Positions 39,501 through 54,421 of a DNA stretch of 64,000 nucleotides are shown here, piece by piece; position 1 is the first letter of the stretch; every line of letters begins with the position of its first letter. The DNA comes from Neptunicoccus cionae (lineage in GTDB: Bacteria > Pseudomonadota > Alphaproteobacteria > Rhodobacterales > Rhodobacteraceae): positions 372,001 to 436,000 of the forward strand of contig NZ_PKOJ01000001.1 of the NCBI RefSeq assembly GCF_002860325.1. Reading direction: 5' to 3'. A program made the translations under genes and the position numbers. The notes under the pieces are model-generated. The model saw only the letters and a list, made by a program, of their open reading frames with translations, was not told the DNA's origin and did no database searches.

Positions 39501-39622
39501 GCAGGAGGCGTCGTCCCTTGTGCATATTCCAGCTGGAAGGCGGTCCCGCCCGCCACCGGCACGCCGCCGTCCGTGATCAGGGACAGGGCCTGTTCCAGAC
39601 TGTCGGGCCGTGCAACCTTCAT
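36563..39622 (-). CDS. Molybdenum hydroxylase with fused FAD and Mo-binding domains (xanthine dehydrogenase family)
   Basis: 1019 residues. Residues 1-275 are the FAD domain (VAGGTAFQLEYAQG; RRLGTLGGNLAWRKG). Residues 285-1019 are the molybdopterin domain: TPRQMHGFMETE, TSPTGGAFGGKDELT, TCGAFRGFGANQM and, near the end, GPRGAGELGIGAIMPAIANA holding the active-site glutamate. Xanthine dehydrogenases usually split as [FeS-FAD]+[Mo]; here FAD is fused to Mo and FeS is separate. Members hydroxylate purines, nicotinate, aldehydes or CO. Between purine deaminase-like genes, a purine (C8 or C2) substrate is the best guess. No XdhC-type chaperone is present. It overlaps the oxygenase gene by four bases. 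Confidence 0.9.
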   Translation of the reverse strand: MKVARPDSLEQALSLITDGGVPVAGGTAFQLEYAQGTTPPAQYVPVGHLIPTGIKGLTIGAGTPLEDLRHAGIPLLSDACRDVAAPNIRRLGTLGGNLAWRKGCLVPALIALDALITTTNGSMPVLEYLSAPDGLVLSITLRPLEGGQIQSTWRKVGLRQAFTASVIATAGMMSLCDNTIVQIRLAAGGGATPAQRLTAVEHWLVGQNIHAIDQAILRQRLEDAIIAVDCPFRTASYRRKVAAASLAAGLFGLPLAPRNKMPEPSKTAFPPALTELSRLKGGDRWHTRPDMPAKLRGTFPYLTDKRADGMLVGRILRAGRPHALIRSIDTTKAESLDGVEAVVTHRDIKGLNAFGIVFQDQPALCHDKVRYTGDAVAAVAAIDAETAERALSLIEVVYDDLPVISDASCALAPDAPPVHTAGNLVTAVAHGRGDTSTGWAQAVHIVEDTYVTPRQMHGFMETEGGWAAPDGDGLIICAGGQHGSRDQMQLARILDVPADSLRVVTSPTGGAFGGKDELTVQPALALLAQKTGKPVRLHLSRAESVQAGTKRNPLTIRMKTGCDAQGNLVAQEVEVISDCGAYASLAPGVLETALEHVVGPYKIDHYRANGRLAYTNNGTCGAFRGFGANQMTFAIECQMDRLAVLAGLDPLEIRRRNLRIPGSPGVLGQRVAPSERLSEMLAAAAHSDMWQPFPVNADEIPGVGMALNYQGNGLGTIPQDEADFGLGLKDGKIQALCGLDEMGQGLTASLHGAVADRLGCARTDVCSVTGDTMLAPDSGSTTAARGGFVVWQGVNRTAPAFEAALLERAATIKGCTPEALKIVPGGVGETRLNSSTPCVSFAELGEIAPVMAHYDFPKTDYTKGNARFIFAFGATLARVAVNRITGMVRVVDLEMHTAAGPVIDMASYLGQMEGGLVQGLGYTLTENMSYQNGRPVAGNFDSYMVPSVKDVPEAMRITAHEGLDANDPYGPRGAGELGIGAIMPAIANAVATATGQCPATMPIAPETVLEMLEGAHGPL

Positions 39623-40458
39623 GCGGCCTCCGGTGTGGTGGTCCCGAACGTTAGCCCTTTCTGTTTCAACCAGCGCCGGTAGGCCACCGATGAACTGTCC
39701 GCCCGTGTCGGAATTTCGGCGCGGGCCTCAAGCGGCAAAAGCAGCGGGCGCTGGTTTTCCACGATAATGCGGTCCTGTAGAAAGATGACCTGTTCAAACC
39801 TCAGAAGTTGGGTGTGGCTGGCCTCTTGATCGGTCAGATACATGACCGGAATGGCCCGCACTTCGTCTTCTTCAACAGGATGAATGAACAGCGCAATGGC
39901 ATCCTCTACGCCGTCCATATCCGGCACGGCGCGATAGAGCATCACCACAAATGGGGAGGGCACCCGATAGGTCAGCTGCGCAAATTCTCCTTCCGGGCGT
40001 GTAGAAGTCATTTGCGGCTGGAAAAATTTGCAGTTTGTCGCCCAAACCTCATCCACATCATGACGGATTTCGGATTTATAGCCGAGCACTTCGGTATGGG
40101 GTTCCGATCCCAGTATATCGGCATGGACAAAGGGAAAATGCGCCATGTCGAGAAAATTTTCCACGACCCGCAACCCCGATGCGCGCATTTTCACCCAGCC
40201 GCAAGGCACATAGCGGCGGTCTTTTTCTTCGCTTTCGGCAATGTCGAAGATCTCTTTGTTCGGGGTGCCTAGGGTCGTCCATAGCACGCCGAATTTTTCA
40301 CGGACAGGCAGGCTGCGGCCCGCTTGCGTGACCTGTTTTCCCGGCCCGACTGTGATCGGATGGCCCAGCAATTTGGTGTCTTCGGCCCGCTCCAGTTCGG
40401 CCACCGTGCCAACGGCATACCAATCGTTAAGGGCTACAGGGTCTTGCGTGCCAGTCAT
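39619..40458 (-). CDS. Rieske-less non-heme iron oxygenase catalytic subunit 1 (NdmC-like)
   Basis: 279 residues from the ATG at 40458 (GAGGAAGACACG upstream); the extension to 40602 is rejected. The catalytic half of a Rieske oxygenase alpha subunit is intact: NFLDMAHFPFVH carries Asp104, His107 and His112 (Dx2Hx4H), and FLQDRIIVENQRP supplies a likely third ligand, Asp229. The Rieske Cys-His motifs are absent: WYAVGTVAELERAEDTKLL runs directly to REKFGVLWTTLG, the strands that normally flank the cluster. NdmC, the N7-demethylase of 7-methylxanthine, is the known precedent (about 280 residues, no Rieske domain). Likely an N- or O-demethylase fed by the Rieske protein at 46123-46806. Substrate inferred. 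Confidence 0.82.
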   Translation of the reverse strand: MTGTQDPVALNDWYAVGTVAELERAEDTKLLGHPITVGPGKQVTQAGRSLPVREKFGVLWTTLGTPNKEIFDIAESEEKDRRYVPCGWVKMRASGLRVVENFLDMAHFPFVHADILGSEPHTEVLGYKSEIRHDVDEVWATNCKFFQPQMTSTRPEGEFAQLTYRVPSPFVVMLYRAVPDMDGVEDAIALFIHPVEEDEVRAIPVMYLTDQEASHTQLLRFEQVIFLQDRIIVENQRPLLLPLEARAEIPTRADSSSVAYRRWLKQKGLTFGTTTPEAA

Positions 40459-40468
40459 CGTGTCTTCC

Positions 40469-41839
40469 TCAATCTGTCCACTGCGCGGTGCCGCCGCCAT
40501 TGGCGTCAAGCCACGTCTGCCGCCGTTCGAAATGGCCGGGGGCAAGACGGGATACCCGTTCGATAATTTCAGGAAGGTCGCCGGACACCAGCTTGCCTTC
40601 ATCCACGCAAATCTGCCCGTTAACCATCGTCATTTTTACGTCACTGCCCTTCACCGCATGCACAAGGTTGTGTTGCAGGTTGAACCAGCGCCCGTCGGGG
40701 AAAAACGGCGTCATGCGGGGGGATTTTCCGTCAACGGCGATAATGTCCGCCTTTTTACCCACTTCCAGAGACCCTGTCACAGTTTCAAGCCCCACAGCTT
40801 TGGCGCCCAGACAGGTAGCCATCTCCAATACCGTCCAGCTGTCCATCGCAGCGGCATCCAGCATCCGCAACTTGCCTTTCAGAGAGGCGGTTTTCATCTC
40901 TTCGAACATATCGAAGTTGTTGTTTTCCTTTTCCCCGTCGGTCCCGATCCCCACAGGTATACCAGCGGCGAGCATTTCCTTGATCGGTGCAATCCCCGAC
41001 GCCAGTTTCATGTTGGAAATCGGGTTATGGGCAACCGATACGTTGTAGTCTGCAACCATCTCTATCTCTTCGGGAGAGAACCAGACTGCATGGGCAAACA
41101 TTGCCAGCGGTGTTTCAAAGAAGCCGAGATCGCGGAAAATTTCCATTGGCATCTTGCCATAGCGTGTCTTGTATTCCGCGAGTTCGATTTCCGCTTCCGA
41201 ACAGTGGGTGTGAAACGGAACCTGATATTTTTTGGACATATCAATGGCGCGCTGCTGGCCTTTTTCATCGGAATAGAACAGGTGCTCCAGACCGACCCAG
41301 ACATTCACACGTCCCTGCGCCTTGCCATTCCACCGCTCGATCATGCCTTCGTTCATATCAAGCGTGTCAAAATAGTCGTAGTCGGGATGCTCACCCACAT
41401 AAGGCACCGCGATGAGGCGGTTGCCAAGCACTTCACACGCCCGTGCAGAGCCGTCCATGTGCCGCCACATGTCCACGATGGTGGTGGTTCCCCCAAGCAG
41501 GCTTTCCGCATAGGCGAGGTAACTTGCCGCTTCGGCTTCTTCGGGCAGCAGAACACGGTGCATCGGGTTGATATGCTGCGTCAGCCAGTCCCAGACAGGC
41601 AGATGTTCCGCCGTGCCCCGCAGAAAGCCGGAATGGGCATGAGCATTGATCAGTCCGGGCATCAGAACGGCCTGACCGAAGGCTTTGACGGGGATATCCG
41701 GATTGGCCGAGATAACCTTTGTGCGCGGACCTACCCCGGCGATTTGATCGCCTTTTACCAGGATCGCGCCGTCGGTAAGCGTCTCGCGTTCCGCGTTCAT
41801 CGTCACAATTGCATCGGCCGTTAAGATCAGATCGCTCAT
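40469..41839 (-). CDS. TRZ/ATZ-type amidohydrolase 2
   Basis: 456 residues. NAHAHSGFLRGTAEHLPVWDWL (HxH metal site), HTHCSEAEIELAEY (His, Glu), MFAHAVWFSPEEIEM (His) and GIGTDGEKENNNFDMFEEM (metal Asp) define a hydrolytic deaminase or dechlorinase-class enzyme of the AtzB/TrzN/SAH deaminase group. EKENNN replaces the more usual SASNN or PASNN, so specificity may differ. It overlaps the GMC gene by four bases and is 10 bases ahead of the oxygenase subunit gene. It probably removes an amino group from a purine-like ring before or after demethylation. Confidence 0.85.
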   Translation of the reverse strand: MSDLILTADAIVTMNAERETLTDGAILVKGDQIAGVGPRTKVISANPDIPVKAFGQAVLMPGLINAHAHSGFLRGTAEHLPVWDWLTQHINPMHRVLLPEEAEAASYLAYAESLLGGTTTIVDMWRHMDGSARACEVLGNRLIAVPYVGEHPDYDYFDTLDMNEGMIERWNGKAQGRVNVWVGLEHLFYSDEKGQQRAIDMSKKYQVPFHTHCSEAEIELAEYKTRYGKMPMEIFRDLGFFETPLAMFAHAVWFSPEEIEMVADYNVSVAHNPISNMKLASGIAPIKEMLAAGIPVGIGTDGEKENNNFDMFEEMKTASLKGKLRMLDAAAMDSWTVLEMATCLGAKAVGLETVTGSLEVGKKADIIAVDGKSPRMTPFFPDGRWFNLQHNLVHAVKGSDVKMTMVNGQICVDEGKLVSGDLPEIIERVSRLAPGHFERRQTWLDANGGGTAQWTD

Positions 41840-43359
41840 GCGTCCTCCAAGATAAATGTAGCTGCACGCTCACCGATCATGGTGACGGGTGCATGGGTGT
41901 GACAGGATGGGATTTCAGGAATTACCGAAGCGTCCGCGACCCAAAGTTTGCGGCACCCTTTGACGCCCAGACGGGGGGAGACCGGCGCATCTTCGCCCGC
42001 ACCCATATGTGCGGTACCGCAACAGTGAAAGAATGTGGAACAGGACCGGCGCACGAAAGTTTCAAAATTGTCCCCGCGTTGCGGTGCAACATAGTCTTTG
42101 AAATAGGACGAAAATCCAGGCGTTGCGACCATATCCATCAGGAACTCCACCCCTTTGACAAGGGCTGCAAGGTCGCGGGGATCCGAGAGCAAATTCGGCT
42201 GGATTTCCAGCGGTGCCGTTGGCGTTGCAGCCGTAAGCCGCAAGGCACCTTTGGAGTATGACCGCATTACCCCCAGCCCGATCGAAAATATGTCATCCCC
42301 GTCCAGATTGTAATGATCCCATAGCGCAGGCACGGCGGAGCGCCCCTGAACCGGAAAGGCCAGCAGATCGGCTTGGGGCAGGGCATCGTCGGATTTCCAG
42401 ATGCTCAGCGTGCCACCACCATTTCCCACCATTGCACCAAGGGGGGCAGTTGCGCGGAAATTGAGTGCGCGTACAAGCGGGTGGTCCTGAAGGTTCTGCC
42501 CGACGCCCTCGGCCTTTATCCGCAGTGCTATGTCCAATTCCGCCAGTTCCTTTGCCGGACCGATGCCGGACAACATCAACAGGCGCGGGGTTTCCAATGC
42601 GCCTGCCGCAAGAATAACGCCCTGTCGTGCCGTCAGAAGCGCCTCACCCTTCGGAGAAAGTATAGCCACTCCGGTGGCGCGGTCTCCTTCAAAGGTCAAG
42701 TGATGGGCAAGGGTCTCGGTCAATACTGTCAGCCGCTCCGACGACAGGATCGGCGCGATGTAAGCTTGCGCAGAGGTGTGGCGCAGACCGGCCTTATCAA
42801 TGTTGAAATTCGCCAGCCCGACACCACCGGCTTCCGGCCCGTTCGGATCATCGATCCGGTCCAGCCCCATCGCAACACCGCCGTCAATCATGGCGCGGGT
42901 CAGAGGATGATCCGGATTGGGGCGGGTGATCTGCAGCGGCCCGTCGCCACCGCGCAATTCATTCGCGCCGCCCGACCAGCATTCTGCCGCCTTGAAAGCA
43001 GGCAAACAATCCTGCCAGCCCCACCCCGGGGCGGTGTCATTCCAGCGGTCGTAATCCGCAGGGACGCCGCGATACCACATCATGGCGTTGGTGGCCGATG
43101 ATCCCCCCAGCGCCTTGCCACGTGGAATTGCGATCTTGCGGTCCAGAATGCGCGGGCTCGGGGTGTAGTGATGCCCCCAGTCCCACGTGCCAGTCTGAAG
43201 GGAAAACCACCTTGCAGGGTCTTCGATTTCGGCGATGCCAAAACTGCTCTTGCCAGCTTCGATCATCGCAACATCGGCGCCCGCATCGTGAAGACGCCGC
43301 GCGACCGCGGCCCCTCCGGAGCCGGAGCCGATGACAATGTAGTCGAAACCGGTCTTCAT
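41836..43359 (-). CDS. GMC-family FAD oxidoreductase
   Basis: 507 residues. The dinucleotide motif DYIVIGSGSGGAAVARRLHD and GMC signature RGKALGGSSATNAMMWYRGV bind FAD; GALETPRLLMLSGIGP is the second GMC signature. The C-terminal active-site region is CGTAHMGAGED... with SCHTHAPVTMIGERAATFI. Members oxidise alcohols (choline, glucose, methanol, aryl alcohols) to aldehydes. The primary acceptor and substrate are unknown. It starts seven bases after the TPP-enzyme gene and overlaps the next deaminase gene by four bases, so it is firmly part of the operon. Together with the aldehyde dehydrogenase it could make an alcohol-to-acid sequence. Confidence 0.9.
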   Translation of the reverse strand: MKTGFDYIVIGSGSGGAAVARRLHDAGADVAMIEAGKSSFGIAEIEDPARWFSLQTGTWDWGHHYTPSPRILDRKIAIPRGKALGGSSATNAMMWYRGVPADYDRWNDTAPGWGWQDCLPAFKAAECWSGGANELRGGDGPLQITRPNPDHPLTRAMIDGGVAMGLDRIDDPNGPEAGGVGLANFNIDKAGLRHTSAQAYIAPILSSERLTVLTETLAHHLTFEGDRATGVAILSPKGEALLTARQGVILAAGALETPRLLMLSGIGPAKELAELDIALRIKAEGVGQNLQDHPLVRALNFRATAPLGAMVGNGGGTLSIWKSDDALPQADLLAFPVQGRSAVPALWDHYNLDGDDIFSIGLGVMRSYSKGALRLTAATPTAPLEIQPNLLSDPRDLAALVKGVEFLMDMVATPGFSSYFKDYVAPQRGDNFETFVRRSCSTFFHCCGTAHMGAGEDAPVSPRLGVKGCRKLWVADASVIPEIPSCHTHAPVTMIGERAATFILEDA

Positions 43360-43366
43360 GCCATGC

Positions 43367-43975
43367 TCAATTATGCTCGGACGGACCCATGATTGTGATC
43401 CCTTCGGTTTTCTCTACATGGCGGACAAAGATGTATTTGTCCTCGCGTCCGTCGGAATGCTTGCGCTTTATTTCCGGCTGGACCGTGCCGGAAACCTTGG
43501 CCACAACAACATAAGGAACATCTGCTTTCAGGCCCGCCTCGCAGTGGGCGTCGAATTCTTCCAGCGTTGTTGCGGTATAGGCGTGGTCGATCCCCGATGC
43601 ACGGGCGATCCCCGCAAGATCCACCCGACCGGACGCCGTATGCGTCTTGGGGCCGCCAATGGATTGATACTGTTCGTTGTCCCAGACAACGATAAACAGG
43701 TTTTTCGGTTGCTCGTTTCCCAAAGTCGCGAGGATGCCAAGGTTGAACAAGAGGCCGCCATCCGTGTCCAGCGATATGATCCGTCGTTCCGGCAGGCCGA
43801 CAGCAAGGCCAAATGCCTGTGGGGTTACGCAGCCGAGTTGTTGCTGGAACAGGGAAGCCTCCCGCATATGAGGCGCGGCGTTGTACCATTCATCCACCGA
43901 AGCACCGAGCGACAGGATGACAAGTTCATCAGACAGGCGGGTGGCCAGTCTGGTCATGCAATCAAAGCGTTTCAT
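43367..43975 (-). CDS. Split TPP-dependent decarboxylase, TPP-binding subunit (sulfopyruvate decarboxylase beta-like)
   Basis: 202 residues from the ATG at 43975, which overlaps the partner stop codon by four bases (ATGA). The C-terminal TPP domain of this enzyme family is seen: LDTDGGLLFNLGILATLG and VWDNEQYQSIGG, the Mg-diphosphate motif. Sulfopyruvate (ComE) and phosphonopyruvate decarboxylases have the same domain. Activity requires the partner subunit encoded immediately upstream. A 2-oxo acid is the expected substrate. No sulfopyruvate or phosphonopyruvate pathway gene is adjacent, so the oxo acid is probably different. Confidence 0.85.
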   Translation of the reverse strand: MKRFDCMTRLATRLSDELVILSLGASVDEWYNAAPHMREASLFQQQLGCVTPQAFGLAVGLPERRIISLDTDGGLLFNLGILATLGNEQPKNLFIVVWDNEQYQSIGGPKTHTASGRVDLAGIARASGIDHAYTATTLEEFDAHCEAGLKADVPYVVVAKVSGTVQPEIKRKHSDGREDKYIFVRHVEKTEGITIMGPSEHN

Positions 43976-44472
43976 CGTACAATGCTCCCGGAAAGGGCCA
44001 CGGCGGTGTGGTAATAGGAGGAATAGGCGAGCTCGTAAGCGTTCACGATGGACTGCTCGATGTCGGCTTCTTCCCTTTCTACAGTGTAAGGAATGCGCAA
44101 TGCCTTCAGGATCGGTTCCATCGTGATTCCATGCGGTACGGCCCACCAGTTGTTTTCTCCCATGTCGCCGCGATAGCTCATGAGCATGACAACCGGAATG
44201 CCGGCCCCCAACCCCATCCGCGACAGTGGCTCTACCGAGGCGCGCAGGCCGGAGTTTTCCATAACGAGGGCCGCACGCTGACCGGACAGGAACAAACCAC
44301 CGCAAATCGCAGCGCCTTCCCCTTCGTTTGTGACCTGAATGGTGCGAATGTCAGGGTCGGCGTCCAGCGCGGGGTAGAGTTCCTTGAACAGGCTGTCAGG
44401 AAGATAACATACCAGTGTCACTCCGGCGCGCTTGAGGCCGCGGATCACAGCCTCGACGGCACTCTGTTGCAT
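43972..44472 (-). CDS. Split TPP-dependent decarboxylase, pyrimidine-binding subunit (sulfopyruvate decarboxylase alpha-like)
   Basis: 166 residues with GGAG before the start. It is the PYR half of a TPP enzyme: VTNEGEGAAICGGLFLSG carries the glutamate that activates TPP, and MSYRGDMGENNWWAVPHG is the substrate-side loop typical of ComD and phosphonopyruvate decarboxylases. The two halves are separate genes, as in ComDE. It is 101 bases downstream of the LysR gene, with a palindrome (44496-44507) in the gap, so it may have its own promoter. Confidence 0.86.
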   Translation of the reverse strand: MQQSAVEAVIRGLKRAGVTLVCYLPDSLFKELYPALDADPDIRTIQVTNEGEGAAICGGLFLSGQRAALVMENSGLRASVEPLSRMGLGAGIPVVMLMSYRGDMGENNWWAVPHGITMEPILKALRIPYTVEREEADIEQSIVNAYELAYSSYYHTAVALSGSIVR

Positions 44473-44494
44473 CTTTTTCTCCAGTTTTCTGTCT

Positions 44495-44507: not shown

Positions 44508-44573
44508 CTGACAGGGAAAAACTGTTCGCAAAAGACGGTAATATTCGAACGAGTTGTTCACCTCAGTGCAACA

Positions 44574-45497
44574 CTAGTCCCGCATCCCTTCCAGCGTGGA
44601 GGTCAAGCTGTCCGCCAGCGCCTGTGCGGCTTCTGTGACCTGACCTTTCGGCCGTGACACAAGGTTCAGGCGCCGCATGCTCAGGCCCGGATCGGCGAGC
44701 GGTATGAACACCAGTTGCCCGCGCGCGATTTCGGTTTGTACGCCCATCTTGGTTTGCAGGATCGTGCCGAGCCCCCGTGTCGCCAGATCAATCATCAAGC
44801 TGATGGAGTTGGTACGTGTCCGGCGGGAGAATTCGACGAAGGCGCCGGAAAACATCTGCTCGACCGAGCTTCCAAGCGACAGGGATCCATCGGACAGGAT
44901 GATCCTTTCCCCAGCCAGATCATAGCTTCGCAGCTTGCCCTGCAGTTTTGTTAGCGGGCTACCTGGGGGGACCAGAACGCCAAGGGGCAGGGAAATTGCA
45001 GAAAGTCTGCGGGCATTTCTGGGAACCCGCACATCAAAGGCAAGGGCGATATCTGCTTCCCCCTGATGTACCATATCCACCGCATCCTGCGAACCGACGA
45101 CCTGCACATCTACACTGATTTCAGGGTGACGGACCCAAAATCCCGCGAGCACATCCATAAGGATTCCGCGGGCGGCGCTTTCGATGACAGCAACAGTCAC
45201 CGTGCCGCGCCGTAGCCCCCGCATGTCGCTGATTTCTGTCAGTGCGCGGTTCATCTCGCTGGAGGACTGCTTGAGATGATATTCAAGCAATTCACCCGCA
45301 GACGTCAGCCGCAAACGCTGTTTTGTCCGGTCAAACAGGGGCGTTCCCAGATCATCTTCCAGCTGTTTGATGGAACGGGAAATAGACGATGGTGCAACAT
45401 TCAGCGTAAGGGCAGCCTGACGGATAGACCCCAAACGCGCCACGAGGGAAAAATGGTAAACGCGGGAGGAAACCAGACCAAGGCGATGTAAATCCAC
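44574..45497 (-). CDS. LysR-family transcriptional regulator
   Basis: 307 residues from a GTG start at 45497, supported by GGAG at the right distance, which overlaps the stop codon of the GST-like gene (TAGGAG). The alternative at 45572 lies inside that gene. Helix-turn-helix: LGSIRQAALTLNVAPSSISRSIKQLEDDLGTPLFDR. The effector domain is standard (TVAVIESAARGILMDVLAGF and ADIALAFDVRV). It is encoded in the same direction as the genes it probably controls, which is unusual for LysR genes, and would give autoregulation with the operon. Its ligand may be a purine or a pathway intermediate. Confidence 0.9.
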   Translation of the reverse strand: MDLHRLGLVSSRVYHFSLVARLGSIRQAALTLNVAPSSISRSIKQLEDDLGTPLFDRTKQRLRLTSAGELLEYHLKQSSSEMNRALTEISDMRGLRRGTVTVAVIESAARGILMDVLAGFWVRHPEISVDVQVVGSQDAVDMVHQGEADIALAFDVRVPRNARRLSAISLPLGVLVPPGSPLTKLQGKLRSYDLAGERIILSDGSLSLGSSVEQMFSGAFVEFSRRTRTNSISLMIDLATRGLGTILQTKMGVQTEIARGQLVFIPLADPGLSMRRLNLVSRPKGQVTEAAQALADSLTSTLEGMRD

Positions 45498-45505
45498 GGG
45501 GACTC

Positions 45506-46126
45506 CTAGTGATAATCCGGTATGCCCGGCATCGTAATGAAGCCGGGGAGCGTTCGTATCTGGCGCGCCCAAAGACGCGCGGCGGGAAACTCATCATGGT
45601 CGAGATTAAAGTCCCTGCACAGGGCAAATGCAGGGAACAGAGCAATATCTGCAAGGCTGGGAGACTTGCCTGCGACGTAAATTTCGCCCCGGAGGGACTG
45701 TCGGGTCAGGTGGTCGTCAAGAATGCGAAAAAGCTGCCTTGCTTTGGCACGCAATACTGCAACGTCCCCCGGCGCATCCAGCAAAGCAACTGCACGGGCC
45801 TCGGTTGCGACTGACAGGTCTTGGCAAGCAAAACCAAGCCAGTCCATCATGCGCGCCCGTTCTGCACTGTCTTTCGGAATGAAACGTTTTTGCGCATCCT
45901 GTTCTGCAACATATATCAGAATGGCTGAAAGGTTTCGCAGGCAAAGCTCCCCGTCTTCCAGAATGGGAAGGCGCCCCAGAGGGTTCAGCTTCAGGTAAGG
46001 GGCGGATTTTTCCTCGGCTCCGGGAAAGGCGTTTACGTTCACGAGTTCCAGCGATTGCTCCGTGCAGGACGCCAGAAGACGCACGCGGAAGCAATCTTCA
46101 TAAAGGTCGTAGTTGTGCAGGATCAT
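45506..46126 (-). CDS. Glutathione S-transferase-like protein (NdmE-like partner candidate)
   Basis: 206 residues. Thioredoxin-like N-domain: MILHNYDLYEDCFRVRLLAS, then YLKLNPLGRLPILEDGELCL, with the cis-proline and the following strand of GSTs; the usual ES pair binding glutathione is replaced by NLSAIL. The C-terminal all-helical domain ends with GKSPSLADIALFPAFAL, the GST N-capping box. In the caffeine degrader system NdmE is a GST-like protein needed to assemble NdmC with the Rieske-bearing reductase. Here the gene overlaps the Rieske gene by four bases, which fits a structural role in the same complex. A true transferase is the alternative. Confidence 0.82.
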   Translation of the reverse strand: MILHNYDLYEDCFRVRLLASCTEQSLELVNVNAFPGAEEKSAPYLKLNPLGRLPILEDGELCLRNLSAILIYVAEQDAQKRFIPKDSAERARMMDWLGFACQDLSVATEARAVALLDAPGDVAVLRAKARQLFRILDDHLTRQSLRGEIYVAGKSPSLADIALFPAFALCRDFNLDHDEFPAARLWARQIRTLPGFITMPGIPDYH

Positions 46127-46806
46127 GCGGCGGCCTCCAGTTGTTCAACACTCCGCCGCAGGTCTTCGCACCAGTCGAGCAGGGCTTCTCTGGTCGCTAT
46201 TGTCGTATCCTGCGGCACGGCAATATGCAGCGCACATCGTCCTTCGGAAATCTGCTGCAGGCCGACTGTCACAACTGTGCTCTCCAGCTTTACCGTTGTG
46301 AAATTGCTGTTGGTCTCATTGTTGCCTGCGGGGGTACTGCCGTGTTGCTCCAGCGCGCCGGATACCTGTGCAACGGGCGCATCTATGTAAACAGAACGAA
46401 CCCCTTCCAGCGCGGGCAGGTCGGGTGGTGAATCCTGTTCCAAAGTGCCAAGGGGTGTGTAGGCCCAGATCATGCCGCCTGTTTCTGTCGTGCCATAGCG
46501 CGAGATACAAATCGATTTGGGAACCTCCAGTTCGGGGTGGGCCGGAACATACTGGCAGGTGCCGCTCGTGTCGTATTCCCACCCGTGGTAAAGGCAGGCA
46601 ATGTGATCGCCCCGCACGAAGCCGAAGCTCATCTTCATGCCACGATGGGGGCAGCGGTCCTCCCATGCGTGGGCCTTTCCGGCAGTATCCCGCCACACAA
46701 CGATTTCTGCATCGTTCACAACTGTTCCTGCGGATGTCCCTGCTTCGATCATATTCGACAAGGCAACCGGAACCCATTGCGAAGGGGCGCTCCCTGTTTG
46801 CGTCAT
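46123..46806 (-). CDS. Stand-alone Rieske [2Fe-2S] protein (oxygenase electron carrier)
   Basis: 227 residues from the ATG at 46806, with AAGGA upstream. A complete Rieske motif of the oxygenase type is present: CPHRG (Cys52, His54) and CLYHGW (Cys71, His74), spaced as in ring-hydroxylating oxygenases. After the cluster domain (to about residue 130) comes a 100-residue tail with no catalytic Dx2Hx4H motif. The Rieske domain is therefore split from both catalytic subunits encoded in the cluster (39619-40458, 53537-54421), which lack it. It overlaps the preceding small gene and the following GST-like gene by four bases each. No reductase is fused to it or encoded nearby. Confidence 0.88.
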   Translation of the reverse strand: MTQTGSAPSQWVPVALSNMIEAGTSAGTVVNDAEIVVWRDTAGKAHAWEDRCPHRGMKMSFGFVRGDHIACLYHGWEYDTSGTCQYVPAHPELEVPKSICISRYGTTETGGMIWAYTPLGTLEQDSPPDLPALEGVRSVYIDAPVAQVSGALEQHGSTPAGNNETNSNFTTVKLESTVVTVGLQQISEGRCALHIAVPQDTTIATREALLDWCEDLRRSVEQLEAAA

Positions 46807-47109: not shown

Positions 47110-47168
47110 CAGCGGTTGGGTTTTCTGTATTCCGACACACTAAGAGAGCGGAAAATCCCTGCCGTCAA

Positions 47169-47420: not shown

Positions 47421-48545
47421 ATGATTTCCACCAAGTCCCTATCCCGCCGCGGCTTCCTGAACATGGGTGTTGCAGCCGGCGCAGGGTATCTGCTGCCCAA
47501 GACGGGCTTGATCAGCCCCGCCCATGCCGCCACCCCGCTTGCTCCTGTCGCCGAAGAAGATGCTCACATCGCTTTCGGTCACACTGGCCCGACCTCTGAC
47601 GAGGGTTGGACCTGGGCCCATGACCAAGGCATGAAAGCGGTTGAGGCCGCCTTCCCGAAACTGCGCACATCCTATGTGGAAAGCATTCCATATTCCGCCG
47701 ATGCCACACGTATTTTCCGCCAGTTCGTCGCGGATGACGCGAATATGGTTTTCGCGACCTCGAACTATGGCGATTTCCTGTACGATGTTGCCAATCGCGC
47801 CCCTGACGTTGCTTTTTACGAATGTGACGGCCGAAGCCCGCTTGAAAATCTCGGGACCTTCTATCTGTCGCACTGGTATCCGTCTTATGTGGCTGGTATT
47901 GCCGCTGGTGCGATGTCGCCTTCGGGTAAACTCGGCTATGTTGCTTCTTTCCCGGTGCCTTCGGTTTATTCCGGAACCAATGCCTTCCTGATGGGCGCGC
48001 GTTCGGTTAACCCCGAAGCCACGTTGCAGGCGATTGTAATCAACAGCTGGTTTGACCCGCAGGCGGCAACGCAGGCCGGTACGGCCCTGATCGATAACGG
48101 TTGCGATGTGTTGTTCGGAATCATGGATGAGGCCGGCTATCTGCAAGTTGCGGAAGAACGCGGCGCCAAGGCAGTAATGTGGAACACCGACCTGCGCCGC
48201 TATGGTCCGAACGCCTATATCTCCTCGATCATCGTGGATTTCAAAGACTTCTACGTAGAGCAAGTCCGCCGCCGTCTGGCCGGTGAATGGACGCCAACAC
48301 AGGATCTTCTGCCCTTCGGAAACGGTGTCGATGTGGATGCCTGGGGCGAAAGCGTACCTGCCGAGGTTGCTGCCAAAGCCGATGCTGTCAAAGCCTCTAT
48401 TCTGGACGGGTCTTTCAATCCGTTCGTAGGCGAGCTCAAGGATACCAAAGGCAACGTGAAAGTCGCCAAAGGTGCAACCATGAGCGAGCAGGAGCTTTAT
48501 CACTGGAACTGGTCCATCGAGGGTGTTTCCGGACTGGACAGCTAG
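47421..48545 (+). CDS. BMP/PnrA-family ABC transporter substrate-binding protein (nucleoside/purine type)
   Basis: 374 residues from the ATG at 47421, behind AGAGG. The N-terminus SRRGFLNMGVAAGAGYLLPK is a twin-arginine signal with cleavage near AHA-ATP, so the receptor is exported folded. The Bmp domain is typical (AFGHTGPTSDEGWTWAHDQG; ADDANMVFATSNYGDFLYDV; GAMSPSGKLGYVASFPVPSV). Family members bind purine nucleosides, bases or related heterocycles. It heads the right-hand train (transporter, deaminases and an oxygenase subunit) and is divergent from the Rieske operon, so it probably imports the same substrate. The ligand is not resolved. Confidence 0.9.
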   Translation: MISTKSLSRRGFLNMGVAAGAGYLLPKTGLISPAHAATPLAPVAEEDAHIAFGHTGPTSDEGWTWAHDQGMKAVEAAFPKLRTSYVESIPYSADATRIFRQFVADDANMVFATSNYGDFLYDVANRAPDVAFYECDGRSPLENLGTFYLSHWYPSYVAGIAAGAMSPSGKLGYVASFPVPSVYSGTNAFLMGARSVNPEATLQAIVINSWFDPQAATQAGTALIDNGCDVLFGIMDEAGYLQVAEERGAKAVMWNTDLRRYGPNAYISSIIVDFKDFYVEQVRRRLAGEWTPTQDLLPFGNGVDVDAWGESVPAEVAAKADAVKASILDGSFNPFVGELKDTKGNVKVAKGATMSEQELYHWNWSIEGVSGLDS

Positions 48546-48550
48546 GAACC

Positions 48551-50122
48551 ATGCGAGACAGTGCATCCGTTCAGCAGCGTCTCGGGCTAACGCCCGGGAC
48601 GCCACCAATTCTTTCGCTGAAAAGCGTGAGCAAGTACTTCCCTGGTGTTATCGCCAATGAGTCAGTTGATCTTGACGTGTATCCGGGCGAAATTCACGCC
48701 CTTCTCGGGGAAAACGGCGCGGGGAAATCCACGCTGATGAATATTGTTACCGGCATCTACAAGATGGATGCAGGTGAATTGATTGTGGATGGTCGCAGGC
48801 GGGATTTTTCGTCACCTACCGATGCGATTGAGGCCGGTATCGGCATGGTGCACCAGCATTTTAAACTGGTGCGGGCCTTTACTGTCGCTGAAAACATCCA
48901 TTTGGGATGGCCTGAAACCCCAAAGCGCATATCGCGTAACAGTCTGGAAACCCGCACAGCCCAACTTGCAACGGATTTGGGGCTTGCCGTTAATCCCAAG
49001 GCAGTGGTTGCGGACCTGTCTACCGGAGAACAGCAAAGGGTCGAAATCCTGCGCGTGCTGGCCCGCGATGCCAAATTGTTGATCCTTGATGAACCGACAG
49101 CCGTTCTGACACCGCAGGAAGCGAGAGAATTGTTCACCGCCTTGCGCGCCTTCACCGCGCGGGGGAACGCGGTGATTTTTATTTCCCATAAACTTGAAGA
49201 AGTGCTCGAAATTTCCGACCGCATCACTGTTTTGCGCAATGGCGAAAAAGTCGCCACAGAGTGGACAAAGGACTGTACAGAGAAAAGCCTTGCGCAATTG
49301 ATGGTCGGGCGGGAGATTGTGCTGACCGAGACCCACAAGAAATCGGCAATTCGCGTAAAAGCTGCTCCTGTTCTCAGCCTGTCAGACGTCAGCCTCAAGG
49401 GAGAGCAGGACACGGTTCTGAAGAATATTTCCTTCGACCTTTATCCGGGGGAAATTCTGGGCATTGCAGGGGTCGCCGGTAATGGCCAACGGGAACTGAC
49501 ATATGTCATTTCCGGCCTGTCGCAGCCCAGTTCCGGCAAGATTGTATTGGATGGTGAAGACGTCACACGCGCTGGTGCCCGTGCGCTTGCGCAAAAAGGC
49601 ATCGGGCATATCCCCGAAGACCGGCTGCATTCCGGTATGGCCCCAACGCTTTCGATCACCGACAACGCGGTTTTGCGTGAATACGGGGCGCCGCCCCTGT
49701 CCCGCAAGGGATGGTTCTCTCCAAGGGGAGCAGCCAATCTCGCGCGGGAGATTGCAAGTATCGCCGAAGTGATGGTGCCCGATTTCAACATGCCAGCGCG
49801 GAACCTGTCGGGTGGCAACCAGCAACGGCTGGTGGCACGTCGGGAGATGCGTATTGCGGAGCGAATCCTGATCGCTGCCTATCCGTCCCGTGGTCTGGAT
49901 GTGGGCGCTATCAACACGATGATGCGCTATTTTCTGGAACTGCGCGACAGCGGTGTAGCGGTGGTTCTTATCTCAGAGGAGTTGGAAGAGTTGCTGAGTT
50001 TTTCGGACCGGATTGCTGTCATGTTCCACGGAGAAATAATGGGAACCTGCCCGACAGACAAAGCAGACGCCGAAACAATCGGCCTGATGATGGGCGGCAC
50101 ACGTCAGGAGGATCTGCCATGA
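48551..50122 (+). CDS. ABC transporter ATPase, duplicated (YufO/RbsA-like)
   Basis: 523 residues, two fused ABC domains. First: GENGAGKSTLM (Walker A), DLSTGEQQRVEILRVLARD (signature), LLILDEPTAVLTPQEA (Walker B). Second: GVAGNGQRELTY, the degenerate Walker A seen in this family, LSGGNQQRLVARREM, AYPSRGLDVGAI. This architecture drives BMP-type nucleoside importers. The start at 48551, five bases after the binding-protein stop, is chosen; a frame back to 48287 lies inside that gene. It overlaps the first permease gene by four bases. Confidence 0.93.
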   Translation: MRDSASVQQRLGLTPGTPPILSLKSVSKYFPGVIANESVDLDVYPGEIHALLGENGAGKSTLMNIVTGIYKMDAGELIVDGRRRDFSSPTDAIEAGIGMVHQHFKLVRAFTVAENIHLGWPETPKRISRNSLETRTAQLATDLGLAVNPKAVVADLSTGEQQRVEILRVLARDAKLLILDEPTAVLTPQEARELFTALRAFTARGNAVIFISHKLEEVLEISDRITVLRNGEKVATEWTKDCTEKSLAQLMVGREIVLTETHKKSAIRVKAAPVLSLSDVSLKGEQDTVLKNISFDLYPGEILGIAGVAGNGQRELTYVISGLSQPSSGKIVLDGEDVTRAGARALAQKGIGHIPEDRLHSGMAPTLSITDNAVLREYGAPPLSRKGWFSPRGAANLAREIASIAEVMVPDFNMPARNLSGGNQQRLVARREMRIAERILIAAYPSRGLDVGAINTMMRYFLELRDSGVAVVLISEELEELLSFSDRIAVMFHGEIMGTCPTDKADAETIGLMMGGTRQEDLP

Positions 50123-51174
50123 CTTCGATGCGTCTGCAACGTATGCCTCTGGCGCCGCCCCGCGTGGCTTTTGCATTGCGCGTGCTGTCTGTCGTTCTGG
50201 CTATCCTGACGGCCGCGCTGGTTTTATGGGGTTCGGGGCACAATCCGCTGGCGCTGGGCGCGAAGGTAATATCCTCGACCTTTGGCAGTTCCTTCGGGCT
50301 GGAAGATCTGTCGCTTTTGTTTTCTCCGCTGATCTATTGCGGCTTGTCGGTTGCGGTGGCTCTGCGCATCGGGGCGTGGAACATCGGGGCTGAAGGGCAG
50401 TTCAATTTTGGCGCGCTCTGTGCCACCGGCGTTGCGCTGTTCGTATCCGGGCCGGTCTGGGTTATCCTGCCTCTGATGGGGGTGGCCGGCATGATTGGCG
50501 GCGCGCTCTGGATTCTGGTTCCGACACTGGCGCGGGCTTACGCGGACGTTTCAGAGCTGATTACCACGCTATTGATGAACTTTGTCGCAATGCTGCTGGT
50601 CTATTGGCTCGCGACCGGACCGTGGCTTGATCCGTCGGGCATGGCGCTGGCGACGACATCCCGTTTGCCGGTTTCGGTGCCGGCCTTTTGGGGCATCGTG
50701 CATTGGGGTCTTCCAATCGCAATACTCATCGCGATCGCATTGTCCCTGTTCGTGACATACACCCGTTGGGGCTATGAGGTGCGGATCGCAGGGGCCAATC
50801 CGGGTGCCGCACGCTATGCGGGTATGCCGGTGCGCACCCAACTGATCGGGATCATGCTGCTGTCCGGCGCGCTGGCAGGGCTGGGTGGTATGATGGAAGT
50901 GGCGGGCACTGTGGGGCGGTTGCAGGGCGGCATTTCCAACAACTACGGATACATCGGCATCATGGTTGCGGTTCTTGCGCGGGCTGCCCCTATCGGCGTT
51001 CTGGCTACGGCGTTTTTCATGGCGGTCTTGCTCAATGGCGGGATCGTGCTCCAGTCACAGGGTCTGACGACCCATACTGTTCTGGCCGTGACCGGCCTGA
51101 TCCTTCTCTATGCGGCTATCGGGGACGAAGCGGCCCATTACAAAATTTTGCGCACCAAAGCGAAGGACGGCTGA
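50119..51174 (+). CDS. ABC transporter permease 1 (YufP-like, BMP importer)
   Basis: 351 residues with about ten hydrophobic helices. AALVLWGSGHNPLALGAKVI at the start and GAWNIGAEGQFNFGALCA are typical of BPD-transporter permeases of the branched-chain/ribose/nucleoside class, as is GANPGAARYAGM, a cytoplasmic loop contacting the ATPase. It starts inside the ATPase gene (ATGA overlap) with AGGAGG upstream. The partner permease gene begins one base after its stop codon. Confidence 0.92.
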   Translation: MTSMRLQRMPLAPPRVAFALRVLSVVLAILTAALVLWGSGHNPLALGAKVISSTFGSSFGLEDLSLLFSPLIYCGLSVAVALRIGAWNIGAEGQFNFGALCATGVALFVSGPVWVILPLMGVAGMIGGALWILVPTLARAYADVSELITTLLMNFVAMLLVYWLATGPWLDPSGMALATTSRLPVSVPAFWGIVHWGLPIAILIAIALSLFVTYTRWGYEVRIAGANPGAARYAGMPVRTQLIGIMLLSGALAGLGGMMEVAGTVGRLQGGISNNYGYIGIMVAVLARAAPIGVLATAFFMAVLLNGGIVLQSQGLTTHTVLAVTGLILLYAAIGDEAAHYKILRTKAKDG

Positions 51175-51175
51175 C

Positions 51176-52111
51176 ATGGATATTCTTGCAGGTCTCATAC
51201 AAACCGCGTTTCTGGCTGGTGGTGTTCTTGCCCTTGCCGCGCTCGGTGAAGTGCTCGCAGAACGGGTCGGCGTTGTTAACCTTGGTGTTGAAGGGCTCAT
51301 TGCCTTGGGGGCGATGTCTGCCGTCGTGACTGTGGTGAGCACGGGGTCGCCGTGGCTTGGCCTTGGTGTTGCCCTGCTTGTAGGGTTGCTCTCGGGTATG
51401 GTGTTCGCAACGGCCACAGTTGTTGTGCGCGCCAACCAAATCCTCTGCGGTCTTGCTCTTACTTATATCGGAACGGGTATGGCGGCGACGATCGGCAAAC
51501 CGTTTTCCGGCACGCCAGTGCCCGAAACGTTTTCCCCCCTTCACATACCGGTCCTGTCCGATCTGCCCTTCTTCGGACGGGCGTTGTTTAGCCATAACAT
51601 CCTGATCTATGTAATCTTTCTTATTTTGCCTTTGGCGCTGCATTACATGATGTTTTATACGCGGCACGGTTTGAACATGCGGGCTGTCGGGGAAAATCCG
51701 GCCGCTGCAGACGCCGCCGGCATTCCGGTGATGAAGATGCGTTTCTGGTATACTTCTCTGGGCGCTGCTCTTGCGTCAGGGGCCGGGGGCTACCTGACAC
51801 TGACCTTTGTGCCAAGCTGGTCGGAGGGAGTGGTCGCGGGGCGGGGCTGGATCGCAGTCGCTCTAGTGATTTTCGCAGGGTTCCGGCCGATCAACGCAGT
51901 ACTGGCTGGTTTGTTGTTCGGATTTGTCACCGGACTCGGCTTTGTCGGGCAGGCACGCAACTGGCCTGTCGCGGCCTCTATACTGTCCATGTTGCCCTAT
52001 CTCGGGACAATGGCGCTGATGATCCTGCCTGTGGTCACATGGCAAAGAATGCGCCGCCTGATGGCTGCCCCTGATGGCATAACAGCCCCCTATTTCAGAG
52101 ACCAAAGATGA
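51176..52111 (+). CDS. ABC transporter permease 2 (YufQ-like, BMP importer)
   Basis: 311 residues, eight to nine membrane helices. EVLAERVGVVNLGVEGLIALGA is the family signature and NMRAVGENPAAADAAGIPVM the coupling loop. GAAREA-like loop and size match the second permease of BMP-type systems. It has GAAGGA upstream, follows the first permease by one base and overlaps the 8-oxoguanine deaminase-like gene by four bases, so import and deamination are produced together. Confidence 0.92.
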   Translation: MDILAGLIQTAFLAGGVLALAALGEVLAERVGVVNLGVEGLIALGAMSAVVTVVSTGSPWLGLGVALLVGLLSGMVFATATVVVRANQILCGLALTYIGTGMAATIGKPFSGTPVPETFSPLHIPVLSDLPFFGRALFSHNILIYVIFLILPLALHYMMFYTRHGLNMRAVGENPAAADAAGIPVMKMRFWYTSLGAALASGAGGYLTLTFVPSWSEGVVAGRGWIAVALVIFAGFRPINAVLAGLLFGFVTGLGFVGQARNWPVAASILSMLPYLGTMALMILPVVTWQRMRRLMAAPDGITAPYFRDQR

Positions 52112-53526
52112 CGACGATCCTGCTGAAACATATTTCGCATTTAGCCCAATTCGACGGCGTCCTGAGGGATGCAGGCACCGAGATTTCGGACGGTTTTGTC
52201 CTGATCCGCGACAATGTCATTGCGGCGTGCGGGCCAATGGCCGATTGCCCCGAAAATGCAGAGCAGAGCGCGGACCGTGTGCTGGATATGTCCGATCATG
52301 TGGTCATGCCGGGTATGGTGAACACCCATCACCATTTCTACCAGAACCTGACCCGTGTTATGGTGCAAGACGATGAATTGTTCGTCTGGCTCAAAACGCT
52401 CTACCCGATCTGGGCGAGGCTTGACGATCGCGCAATGGCCACAGCTTCCCGTATGGCGATGGCGGAACTCATCATGTCCGGCTGCACAACCAGTTCGGAT
52501 CACCAGTATATCATGCCCAATGATTGCACGCTCGACACGCCGATCCGTGTCGCACAGGAGATGGGTCTGCGGTTCCACGCAGCCCGCGGCGCGATGAGCC
52601 GTGGGGAAAGCAAAGGCGGCCTGCCACCCGATAGCTGTGTGGAAGAAGAAGATGATATTCTGCAAGACGCAGAGCGTTTGATCGGCACCTATCACGATAT
52701 GTCGGACCATGCGATGACGCGCATAGTGCTTGCGCCCTGTTCGGCATTTTCGGTTACGCAAGGGCTAATGAAAGACGCTGCTGCGCTGGCACGATCCCAT
52801 GATGGTGTACGCCTTCATTCCCATATCGCCGAAGTTCTCTCCGAAGAAGAATATTGTATTGAAACCTACGGCATGCGTTCCGTCGCCTATGCCGAAAGCT
52901 GCGACTGGCTGGGGCCGGATGTCTGGTTCGCCCATTCAATATTCCTCAATGATGCTGAAATCAGGGCCTTTGCAGAAACCGGAACCGGTGCAACGTTTTG
53001 CCCCTCCGCCCATATGCGCTGCGGGCTTGGGATTATGCGCACGCGCGAGATGCTGGATGCCGGTGTTGTCGTGGGGCTGGGGGTGGACGGGTCTGCGTCC
53101 AATGACACCTCCAACATGTTTTCCGAGGTGCGCTTCGCGCAGTTCCTACAGCGTGTCGCACCGGACCGTTATCTTTCCGAAGCACCGGGGGGGCGTGGCG
53201 GCTTCGGGGGAACTCCAACCGCATTGTCTGTTCGCGAGGCGCTCTGGATGGCGACACGGGGCGGCGCCCATTTGCTGGGACGCGATGACATCGGTCAGAT
53301 TGCAGCCGGAAAATCAGCGGATCTGATCGCAGTGAAGCGTACCCAACTTGGTATGGCAGGCACGCAACGCGACCCGCTTGCGGCGCTGGTGATGTGTGGC
53401 CCCTTTAACGTGGACTATTCTTTCGTCAACGGTGTGCCTTTGGTTGAACGAGGCAGTTTTACCCGTCTGGATATTGACGCTGCATTGCGCGATCATAGCG
53501 AAACGATGGATCGGATTTATGCCTAA
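52108..53526 (+). CDS. 8-oxoguanine deaminase-like amidohydrolase
   Basis: 472 residues. It shows the metal motif NTHHHFYQNLTRVMVQDDEL, the YPIWARL and SDHQYIMPND segments, HSHIAEVLSEEE (His, Glu), HSIFLNDAEIRAF and VDGSASNDTSNMFSEV with the metal-binding Asp. These segments are close to bacterial 8-oxoguanine deaminases, which convert 8-oxoguanine to uric acid. Related enzymes accept isocytosine or other guanine analogues. In this cluster the substrate may be an 8-oxidised or methylated guanine. Translation is coupled to the second permease gene through ATGA, and the second oxygenase subunit gene begins 10 bases downstream. Confidence 0.85.
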   Translation: MTTILLKHISHLAQFDGVLRDAGTEISDGFVLIRDNVIAACGPMADCPENAEQSADRVLDMSDHVVMPGMVNTHHHFYQNLTRVMVQDDELFVWLKTLYPIWARLDDRAMATASRMAMAELIMSGCTTSSDHQYIMPNDCTLDTPIRVAQEMGLRFHAARGAMSRGESKGGLPPDSCVEEEDDILQDAERLIGTYHDMSDHAMTRIVLAPCSAFSVTQGLMKDAAALARSHDGVRLHSHIAEVLSEEEYCIETYGMRSVAYAESCDWLGPDVWFAHSIFLNDAEIRAFAETGTGATFCPSAHMRCGLGIMRTREMLDAGVVVGLGVDGSASNDTSNMFSEVRFAQFLQRVAPDRYLSEAPGGRGGFGGTPTALSVREALWMATRGGAHLLGRDDIGQIAAGKSADLIAVKRTQLGMAGTQRDPLAALVMCGPFNVDYSFVNGVPLVERGSFTRLDIDAALRDHSETMDRIYA

Positions 53527-53536
53527 GGAGCAGCCG

Positions 53537-54421
53537 ATGACCAAATCACTGGACCAAGCCACGCTGGATCAATGGTATTGCATTCAGAATGTTGCGGAGA
53601 TTCCCGTTTCCGGTGTGCGGACGCGGCTGTTGGGGGTGGATCTTTCCATTTCCGCAGGACCAGAGCCCACGGTGCAGGCGTCTGAAGACACGGGTGTCCG
53701 CACACTGCCTGTACGCCAGCGTTACGGGTATCTGTGGACGACACTTGGTGCGCCTAACAAGGACGTGCCGGATATCCCCGAAGCCGAAGAACCGGATCGC
53801 CGTTACGTGCCTTGTGGCGCGGTGAAGGTGCAATCCTCTGCGCCGCGGGTGGTGGAGAATTTTCTCGACATGGCTCATTTCCCGTTTGTTCACACGGATA
53901 TTTTGGGGTCCGAAGAACATCCGGAAGTGGAAAAATACAAATGTGAGATCCGGCGCGAAGTGGATGAAGTCTGGGCAACCGACTGTGTTTTTACCCAGCC
54001 CCGCGCGGCGAAACTGTCGACTGAGCCGTTGCGCACGGATTACATTTACCGGATCACAACGCCTTATACTGTGGTGCTTTACAAAACCTGCCCGATTTCG
54101 AAGACCCGTTGGGATGTTATCGCTTTGTTTGTGCAGCCGGTGGAGCCGGGTCTCAGCCGTGCCCATCCGGTCATGTTCTTGCTGGATGATGTTAGCACGG
54201 ACGCCGAATTGATTGCCTTTCAGCAGGTTATTTTCCTTCAGGACCGGATTATTCTTGAAAACCAGCGTCCGGTCCTTTTGCCGATCGAACCCCGAAGCGA
54301 AACGCCCACAAGGGCGGATGCCTCCTCTATCGCTTATCGCCGGTGGTTGAAGGAAAAGGGCTGCTTCTATGGTACATCGCTCGGCCCAGCGCTTGGCACG
54401 CAACAGTTCCAACAGGTCTAA
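53537..54421 (+). CDS. Rieske-less non-heme iron oxygenase catalytic subunit 2 (NdmC-like)
   Basis: 294 residues from the ATG at 53537 (AAGGAG upstream); the longer frame to 53396 is inside the deaminase gene. It is a paralogue of the protein at 39619-40458: both have RRYVPCG, VVENFLDMAHFPFVH, DILGSE, DEVWAT and IFLQDRII. Iron ligands are Asp111, His114, His119 (Dx2Hx4H) and probably Asp236. No Rieske Cys-His pairs exist; QWYCIQNVAEI leads to QRYGYLWTTLG, again the flanks of an excised cluster domain. Located between the two guanine-deaminase-like genes. Probably an N-demethylase for a purine, with different regiospecificity from its paralogue. Electrons would come from the stand-alone Rieske protein. 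Confidence 0.82.
   Translation: MTKSLDQATLDQWYCIQNVAEIPVSGVRTRLLGVDLSISAGPEPTVQASEDTGVRTLPVRQRYGYLWTTLGAPNKDVPDIPEAEEPDRRYVPCGAVKVQSSAPRVVENFLDMAHFPFVHTDILGSEEHPEVEKYKCEIRREVDEVWATDCVFTQPRAAKLSTEPLRTDYIYRITTPYTVVLYKTCPISKTRWDVIALFVQPVEPGLSRAHPVMFLLDDVSTDAELIAFQQVIFLQDRIILENQRPVLLPIEPRSETPTRADASSIAYRRWLKEKGCFYGTSLGPALGTQQFQQV

Follow-up and report, generated by a model that had tools for sequence, protein, structure and literature searches.

Genes for a free-standing Rieske protein and two catalytic-only subunits in Neptunicoccus cionae point to an NdmCDE-type split Rieske oxygenase

In the usual ring of a Rieske oxygenase, the cluster and the iron that cooperate lie in different copies of the chain, about 12 A apart, according to the accessible part of a 2025 review (PMC12445004). 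Can these two centres also be divided between separate genes? The question is raised by a stretch of 64,000 nucleotides of Neptunicoccus cionae (contig NZ_PKOJ01000001.1, positions 372,001 to 436,000; hereafter the window), in which an earlier reading of the sequence alone (the sequence-only reading) had noticed one gene with a Rieske motif, two genes with an iron site, here called catalytic subunits A and B, and a glutathione S-transferase (GST)-like gene, and had taken them for a split oxygenase resembling NdmCDE, the 7-methylxanthine N7-demethylase of Pseudomonas putida CBB5. We conclude that the window probably encodes an NdmCDE-type split Rieske oxygenase in which the division has gone a step further. 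This conclusion is carried by homology, domain content, co-occurrence, gene ratios and predicted single-chain folds.

Rieske motif and iron site on separate genes

The Rieske gene (Table 1) starts with ATG and its translation contains the cluster ligands Cys52, His54, Cys71 and His74. Pfam detected PF00355 in the protein (81.9 bits) and no other domain above cut-off, and an iron site is absent. Subunit A carries the iron-site residues Asp104, His107 and His112; subunit B carries Asp111, His114 and His119, together with Asp236 as probable third iron ligand. VanA_C and KshA_C were matched in both subunits and Rieske in neither. The sequence-only reading had described a complete Rieske motif without iron site at 46123-46806 and iron sites without Rieske motif at 39619-40458 and 53537-54421. 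Its coordinates and residues were exact, although it left the strands unstated (minus for the first two, plus for the third). A and B are 54% identical, and the closest named record among the matches listed comes from a Rhodobacteraceae metagenome-assembled genome, whose catalytic protein is 98% identical to B.

The Rieske protein consists of a Rieske domain (residues ~1-117) and a C-terminal domain (~134-226). Its AlphaFold model, built from 48 sequences, reached a predicted local distance difference test score (pLDDT) of 92.3 and a predicted template-modelling (TM) score (pTM) of 0.89, with the C-terminal domain modelled as beta-alpha-beta-beta-beta-alpha. In Foldseek this model aligned over 260-284 columns to SxtT, GxtA and NdmA, with a TM of 0.66-0.74 when scaled to the query length (0.67-0.74 for SxtT and GxtA) and a root-mean-square deviation of 5.3-7.5 A. 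Because the Rieske domain makes up about half of the chain, the C-terminal domain should add to this match, and it is likely, judging from the model, a shrunken or vestigial catalytic domain. The catalytic protein, modelled from 47 sequences (pLDDT 89.0), matched SxtT and GxtA over 328-335 columns (TM 0.75-0.84). When profiles of the catalytic and Rieske proteins were compared, they aligned through the Rieske domain (probability 84.8, E 6.5e-6): the catalytic proteins retain the shell of this domain, from which the cluster loops are gone. The alpha-subunit fold and ligands of the Rieske oxygenase superfamily are present here, spread over two chains; SxtT/GxtA and NdmA/NdmB resemble both window halves in fold and ligands but hold both centres in one chain. 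The simplest reading suggested by these models is that a single full-length ancestor gave rise to the free Rieske and catalytic proteins by reciprocal loss.

Do A and B perform the same task? Active-site changes suffice to turn NdmA from N1 to N3, according to the accessible part of the published account. In our alignments the NdmA 'QL' mutant differs from the wild type by Asn to Gln, at what we take to be residue 282, and by Phe to Leu. At the position of this Asn, which governs selectivity in NdmA/NdmB, Glu is found in 27 of 27 subunits whose gene adjoins an amidohydrolase or xanthine-dehydrogenase gene, and Gln in 67 of the 70 remaining ones (Met, Tyr and Glu occur once each). From this Glu/Gln split we infer that A and B differ in the position attacked or in the substrate. 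In a tree of 51 catalytic rows, whose bootstrap was not settled, the 12 A-type rows formed one clade (100/100) and the Gln rows did not form one group; one full-length row, on a long branch, was placed among the catalytic-only rows.

Recurrence of the gene set

Related loci were collected by searching genome contigs with the catalytic alignment, and the best 80 of at least 578 relatives were taken. They were ranked by likeness to B, so the fused NdmC type is under-sampled among them. All 80 loci hold a catalytic-only gene and 77 hold a Rieske-only gene in the examined flank; a GST gene adjoins the Rieske gene in 77, and an open reading frame (ORF) carrying both motifs was found in none of the 80. 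For the three loci without a Rieske-only gene, a strong Rieske match lies elsewhere in the same genomes (open frames of 254-278 aa). Since the same set recurs in related loci, it is not due to chance. Its core is the catalytic, Rieske and GST genes, usually with a small acylphosphatase-like gene. Transporters and deaminases lie outside this core: 13 of the 80 loci are without a strong transporter or deaminase match in the examined flank; three of these 13 are short contigs, one (L081) has a weaker deaminase match, another (L115) an ATPase match, and in L061, L069 and L082 no transporter or deaminase domain was found in ten neighbouring proteins.

Co-occurrence of the three families, which the sequence-only reading had proposed to survey, is thus close to complete in the loci, and the same holds for genomes. 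Among 250 genomes drawn from the class, catalytic-only genes occur in four and Rieske matches (E <= 1e-22) in five, namely the same four and one genome with a 407-aa frame carrying both motifs. The overlap has a hypergeometric p of 1.6e-6 when the own genome is left out; two of the four genomes share a genus. The system is patchy, since only three of 61 genomes taken from the own genome, genus, family and class have a catalytic gene, all three in the own genus. In one of these three (G008) the Rieske, catalytic and GST genes follow one another directly, each overlapping the next by four bases.

The gene ratio bears on the proposal that one Rieske protein serves two catalytic subunits. Two genomes (G000 and G016) pair two catalytic genes with a single Rieske gene of free size. 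Nine further genomes were picked, partly since five already showed two catalytic loci on one contig: seven have two catalytic genes with a single Rieske gene between them, in G305 one contig holds two catalytic genes and one Rieske gene, and a 395-aa frame matching both queries lies elsewhere; and G066 has one of each. The ratio of two to one, seen in ten genomes in all, is consistent with sharing.

A tblastn search with catalytic A returned 307 plasmid records (128 from Rhizobium, 65 from Sinorhizobium), full-length oxygenases among them. The long cluster reappears almost unchanged on plasmid pRt932 of R. tumorigenes, where a guanine deaminase is annotated. A compact operon of Rieske, catalytic, GST and amidohydrolase genes with a basic membrane protein (BMP)-type binding protein, an ATPase and two permeases is found in R. 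johnstonii 3841, Shinella, Rhizobium sp. C104 and Qingshengfaniella.

The GST-like gene overlaps the Rieske gene by four bases exactly as claimed earlier (46126-45506 against 46123); what had been missed is the small gene at 47087-46803 and the purine context. Judged by the bases around the stop codon, the small and Rieske genes overlap by four bases in 44 of 62 cases and by one base in 3, and the Rieske and GST genes by four bases in 42 of 72 and by one base in 28. The small gene is present in 70 of the 80 loci (68 by a stricter count), adjoining the Rieske gene in 69, and is therefore not universal. A related gene lies upstream of the Rieske gene in R. tumorigenes, Lichenihabitans and R. johnstonii, the copy of R. 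johnstonii being annotated as acylphosphatase. A profile of 27 small proteins finds solved acylphosphatases (best PDB 3trg, E 5.5e-5), and PF00708 is hit by 14 of the 27 at an E of 1 or lower; with 17.3 bits against PF00708, the window protein stays below the cut-off of 22.5 for an acylphosphatase. Acylphosphatase catalysis relies on Arg and Asn, 18 residues apart. Arg stands at its position in 7 of 71 small proteins, and 18 residues further on Asn is not among the six commonest residues. Because the catalytic Arg is kept in only these seven, the small protein shares the probable fold of acylphosphatases but is probably non-enzymatic, and it would serve in docking or assembly.

Comparison with NdmCDE

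How close is the window to NdmCDE itself? In the accessible part of PMC4408171, NdmCDE is presented as the first case reported in which a Rieske domain has been detached and joined to a reductase, the GST-like protein is required, and homologous clusters without assigned function are counted in 18 further organisms, beyond the closest mainly Sinorhizobium and Mesorhizobium. A complex needing the GST-like part is reported in the available portions of PMC4408171 and PMC13237722, and the latter, a 2026 note, calls its structure unsolved. The 2025 review, in its accessible part, covers NdmA/NdmB and NdmD and mentions no split system (PMC12445004).

Our comparison was made with an NdmCDE-type cluster of Klebsiella, in place of the CBB5 proteins themselves, and gave identities of 45% for catalytic B, 35% over 146 aa for the Rieske protein and 34% over 203 aa for the GST-like protein. 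On this Klebsiella plasmid a catalytic-only gene occurs together with genes for a full-length oxygenase, a 585-aa protein, a GST and a nucleobase symporter. The 585-aa protein aligns end to end with a 588-aa Rieske-reductase fusion on pSymA of S. meliloti, where two catalytic genes, a GST gene and a BMP transporter are also found. The window and NdmCDE have in common a catalytic subunit without cluster, a Rieske domain on another polypeptide of the cluster, an NdmE-type GST-like partner and a purine context, and the earlier suggestion of a common principle is supported by direct homology of all three components. Unlike NdmCDE, the window has a Rieske gene of 227 aa that is not fused to a reductase and has Rieske as its only Pfam domain, two catalytic paralogues, an acylphosphatase-like neighbour and no reductase gene in the cluster.

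In a tree of 57 Rieske rows, with long branches and a bootstrap that was not settled, 39 free rows grouped (86/85) apart from two fused rows, those of S. meliloti and Klebsiella. This fits the claim of a Rieske domain separate from the reductase, whichever of the two forms came first. One free row, G192, joined the fused ones; in this genome (L127/L129) the catalytic, Rieske and GST genes follow the order of NdmC, NdmD and NdmE, and a reductase seems to be missing. Long stop-to-stop frames with catalytic or Rieske matches, from locus L025 onward, were also compared with 21 query proteins in a Rosetta-stone search, which is blind to domains outside these queries. No frame matched a second query, with two exceptions: the Rieske-reductase fusion of S. 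meliloti and the undivided HpxD of Pantoea (L034).

No description of the free-Rieske form or of an acylphosphatase-like partner was found in the listed titles and abstract starts of the open-access literature; for the free form this is in line with the statement of the sequence-only reading that it knew of no such described system. The split between cluster and iron, which a one-chain oxygenase makes between chain copies, has apparently been turned into separate genes. The arrangement recurs in many other bacteria, where one electron carrier is apparently common to two catalytic proteins. Separate genes would open partner choice, a common electron core and exchangeable catalytic subunits to protein mixing, and a large natural family surrounds NdmCDE, whose complex is still called structurally unsolved in the part of PMC13237722 available.

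Purine context, alternatives and neighbouring genes

What would such an oxygenase act upon? On the minus strand, from 47087 down to 33254, the small, Rieske and GST-like genes are followed by a LysR-type regulator, a two-part thiamine pyrophosphate (TPP) enzyme, a glucose-methanol-choline (GMC) oxidoreductase, an amidohydrolase, catalytic A, a xanthine-dehydrogenase-like enzyme, an aldehyde dehydrogenase and a second amidohydrolase. The plus strand, from 47421, encodes a BMP protein, an ATP-binding cassette (ABC) ATPase, two permeases, 8-oxoguanine deaminase, catalytic B and a guanine-deaminase-like protein. The related loci were limited to 10 kb, so counts of neighbours are lower bounds: BMP binding proteins occur in at least 60 of the 80 loci, guanine-deaminase-like genes in at least 31, and 8-oxoguanine-deaminase-like genes and xanthine-dehydrogenase-like large subunits in at least 20 each. 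These neighbours point to purine N-dealkylation. They also point to a route by which plant-associated and marine bacteria would degrade purines, of which no description was found in the listed titles and abstract starts of the open-access literature. A cytokinin was considered as substrate and rejected as a guess without support in the same literature.

In the split oxygenase that we favour, the free Rieske protein would carry the [2Fe-2S] cluster and pass electrons to the mononuclear iron of A or B, replacing the neighbour's Rieske domain of the usual alpha3 ring. The GST-like and acylphosphatase-like proteins would be non-catalytic assembly or docking parts, and a reductase or ferredoxin from another locus would relay electrons from NAD(P)H to the Rieske protein. 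A and B, sharing this Rieske core, would act on different positions or different purines. The BMP transporter would import a guanine- or xanthine-type purine, which the oxygenase would demethylate by oxidative N-dealkylation; the deaminases and the xanthine-dehydrogenase-like enzyme would then oxidise the ring. A broader proposal, which we regard as possible but rather doubtful when taken as a whole, is a modular family in which one Rieske core with GST-like and acylphosphatase-like adaptors works with exchangeable catalytic heads that differ in regioselectivity. Such a family would descend, through reciprocal loss, from a duplicated full-length alpha subunit and would take its electrons from a general ferredoxin or reductase of the cell. 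In rhizobia, roseobacters, acetic acid bacteria and a Rhodococcus it would carry out a widespread salvage of N-alkylated guanines from RNA/DNA turnover.

Several observations weigh against the favoured explanation or parts of it. With the reductase part of S. meliloti as query, no NdmD-type reductase relative was detected in the examined flank of the 80 loci (four ORFs matched, all outside them), and the four NdmD-type reductase domains of the own genome all sit inside larger fusions. For both reasons the reductase is probably shared with other systems and encoded elsewhere. Plain demethylation does not account for the TPP, GMC and aldehyde dehydrogenase genes, and a formaldehyde dehydrogenase was not among the ten cluster proteins scanned; these genes may treat a longer N-substituent. 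The small gene is missing from 10 of the 80 loci. As to the C-terminal domain of the Rieske protein, its likeness to the catalytic domain is hinted at by the fold search alone, with the high deviation given above, and hhalign found no significant sequence likeness between the two (8.6% probability); the domain is closer to the NdmD-type linker, at 23.6 bits for S. meliloti and 8.9 bits for Klebsiella, the two targets searched. Finally, the own genome holds other short Rieske proteins (open frames of 142, 119 and 209 aa) as possible donors.

Two side observations belong here. The four reductase domains of the own genome just mentioned (L118, L119, L120 and L121) are of VanB type, and the larger frames around them were read by eye as two P450 and two reductive-dehalogenase-like fusions. 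The two-part TPP enzyme at 43367-44472 (minus strand), beside the GMC oxidoreductase, is kept in many relatives (TPP alpha in at least 40 of the 80 loci, TPP beta in at least 29, GMC in at least 24), and demethylation gives it no role.

The alternative that survives best, though we consider it unlikely, accepts the split oxygenase and changes its chemistry: the substrate would be another N-heterocycle (pterin, triazine-like or imidazole), or the reaction a ring hydroxylation of HpxD type. The TPP decarboxylase-like, GMC and aldehyde dehydrogenase genes hint at side-chain chemistry, the nearest solved relatives of the catalytic subunits, SxtT and GxtA, are described in the accessible part of the literature as C-H hydroxylation enzymes, the BMP protein resembles an atrazine-binding protein, and one relative is annotated as the Rieske xanthine hydroxylase HpxD. 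However, the 8-oxoguanine and adenosine deaminases exceed their cut-offs, the guanine-deaminase-like protein falls just below and the xanthine-dehydrogenase-like one somewhat below theirs, and there is homology to an NdmC-type protein that adjoins a nucleobase symporter.

Far less probable is that the Rieske protein is an ordinary soluble ferredoxin of some other oxygenase, with the catalytic-only proteins using a different donor. Rieske-type ferredoxins do occur in three-component oxygenase systems, which like the window have a separate small Rieske carrier, and the own genome has the further short Rieske proteins mentioned above. But the terminal oxygenase of those systems has its own Rieske cluster, whereas no frame with both motifs occurs in the 80 loci, and free Rieske and catalytic-only genes co-occur closely. 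The window protein is moreover not a small single-domain carrier nearest to ferredoxins: its best matches are oxygenase alpha subunits (E 2e-18, against 1.6e-5 for ferredoxins), and it has a C-terminal domain that the ferredoxins of three-component oxygenases lack. That the pieces are decayed, non-working remnants of a full-length oxygenase is scarcely credible: both proteins resemble deletion derivatives of one fold, but the third-ligand motif is kept in 96 of 97 distinct catalytic sequences, 29 columns are invariant across 48 Rieske proteins and 53 across 47 catalytic proteins, and the gene overlap is conserved.

In the sequence sets behind the third-ligand count (window, L012, L016 and L025-L117 minus L032 and L034) only that count is independent, because the sets were defined by their motifs; trimming and de-duplication removed 6 of 88 Rieske, 0 of 97 catalytic, 6 of 91 GST and 6 of 77 small-protein frames. 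Locus L032 (Cupriavidus sp. EM10 plasmid p352-3) holds a caffeine-demethylation-type cluster with several genes in broken frames.

Table 1. Positions in the window of the core genes and their neighbours, with the basis of each assignment
Feature	Position	Strand	Basis
Amidohydrolase/deaminase	33254..34582	-	Domain scan
Aldehyde dehydrogenase	34607..36115	-	Domain scan
2Fe-2S subunit of xanthine-dehydrogenase-like enzyme	36112..36726	-	Listed ORF, by synteny
Xanthine-dehydrogenase-like flavin adenine dinucleotide (FAD) + molybdopterin fusion, PucC/PucD-like	36563..39622	-	Below cut-off
Catalytic-only oxygenase A, 279 aa, Glu at selectivity position	39619..40458	-	Pfam, translation, alignment
Amidohydrolase/deaminase	40469..41839	-	Nearest solved relative is methylthioadenosine/S-adenosylhomocysteine (MTA/SAH) deaminase
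GMC (choline dehydrogenase-like) oxidoreductase	41836..43359	-	Domain scan
TPP enzyme, beta part	43367..43975	-	Below NCBIfam cut-off
TPP enzyme, alpha part, sulfopyruvate decarboxylase-like	43972..44472	-	Below NCBIfam cut-off
LysR-type regulator	44574..45572	-	Listed ORF, start uncertain; Pfam
GST-like (NdmE-like) protein, 206 aa	45506..46126	-	Pfam, homology; 4-base overlap with Rieske gene
Free-standing Rieske protein, 227 aa	46123..46806	-	Pfam, model, translation
Small acylphosphatase-like protein, 94 aa	46803..47087	-	Synteny, profile; 4-base overlap with Rieske start
BMP-type solute-binding protein	47421..48545	+	Nearest solved: atrazine-binding protein, BMP lipoprotein
ABC transporter ATPase	48287..50122	+	Listed ORF, true start inside
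Two ABC permeases	50119..52111	+	Synteny with annotated relatives
8-Oxoguanine deaminase	52108..53526	+	572 bits, cut-off 532
Catalytic-only oxygenase B, 294 aa, Gln at selectivity position	53537..54421	+	Pfam, translation, model
Guanine-deaminase-like amidohydrolase	54428..55807	+	363 bits, just under cut-off 375
Adenosine deaminase	55815..56894	-	266 bits, cut-off 217

Two long frames outside the cluster were read by eye. The one at 23500-31995 (plus strand) encodes a 2831-aa protein with glycine/aspartate-rich repeats of the repeats-in-toxin (RTX) calcium-binding kind, and the one at 57030-62312 (minus strand) a secreted-looking protein of 1760 aa with repeated surface-protein-like domains.

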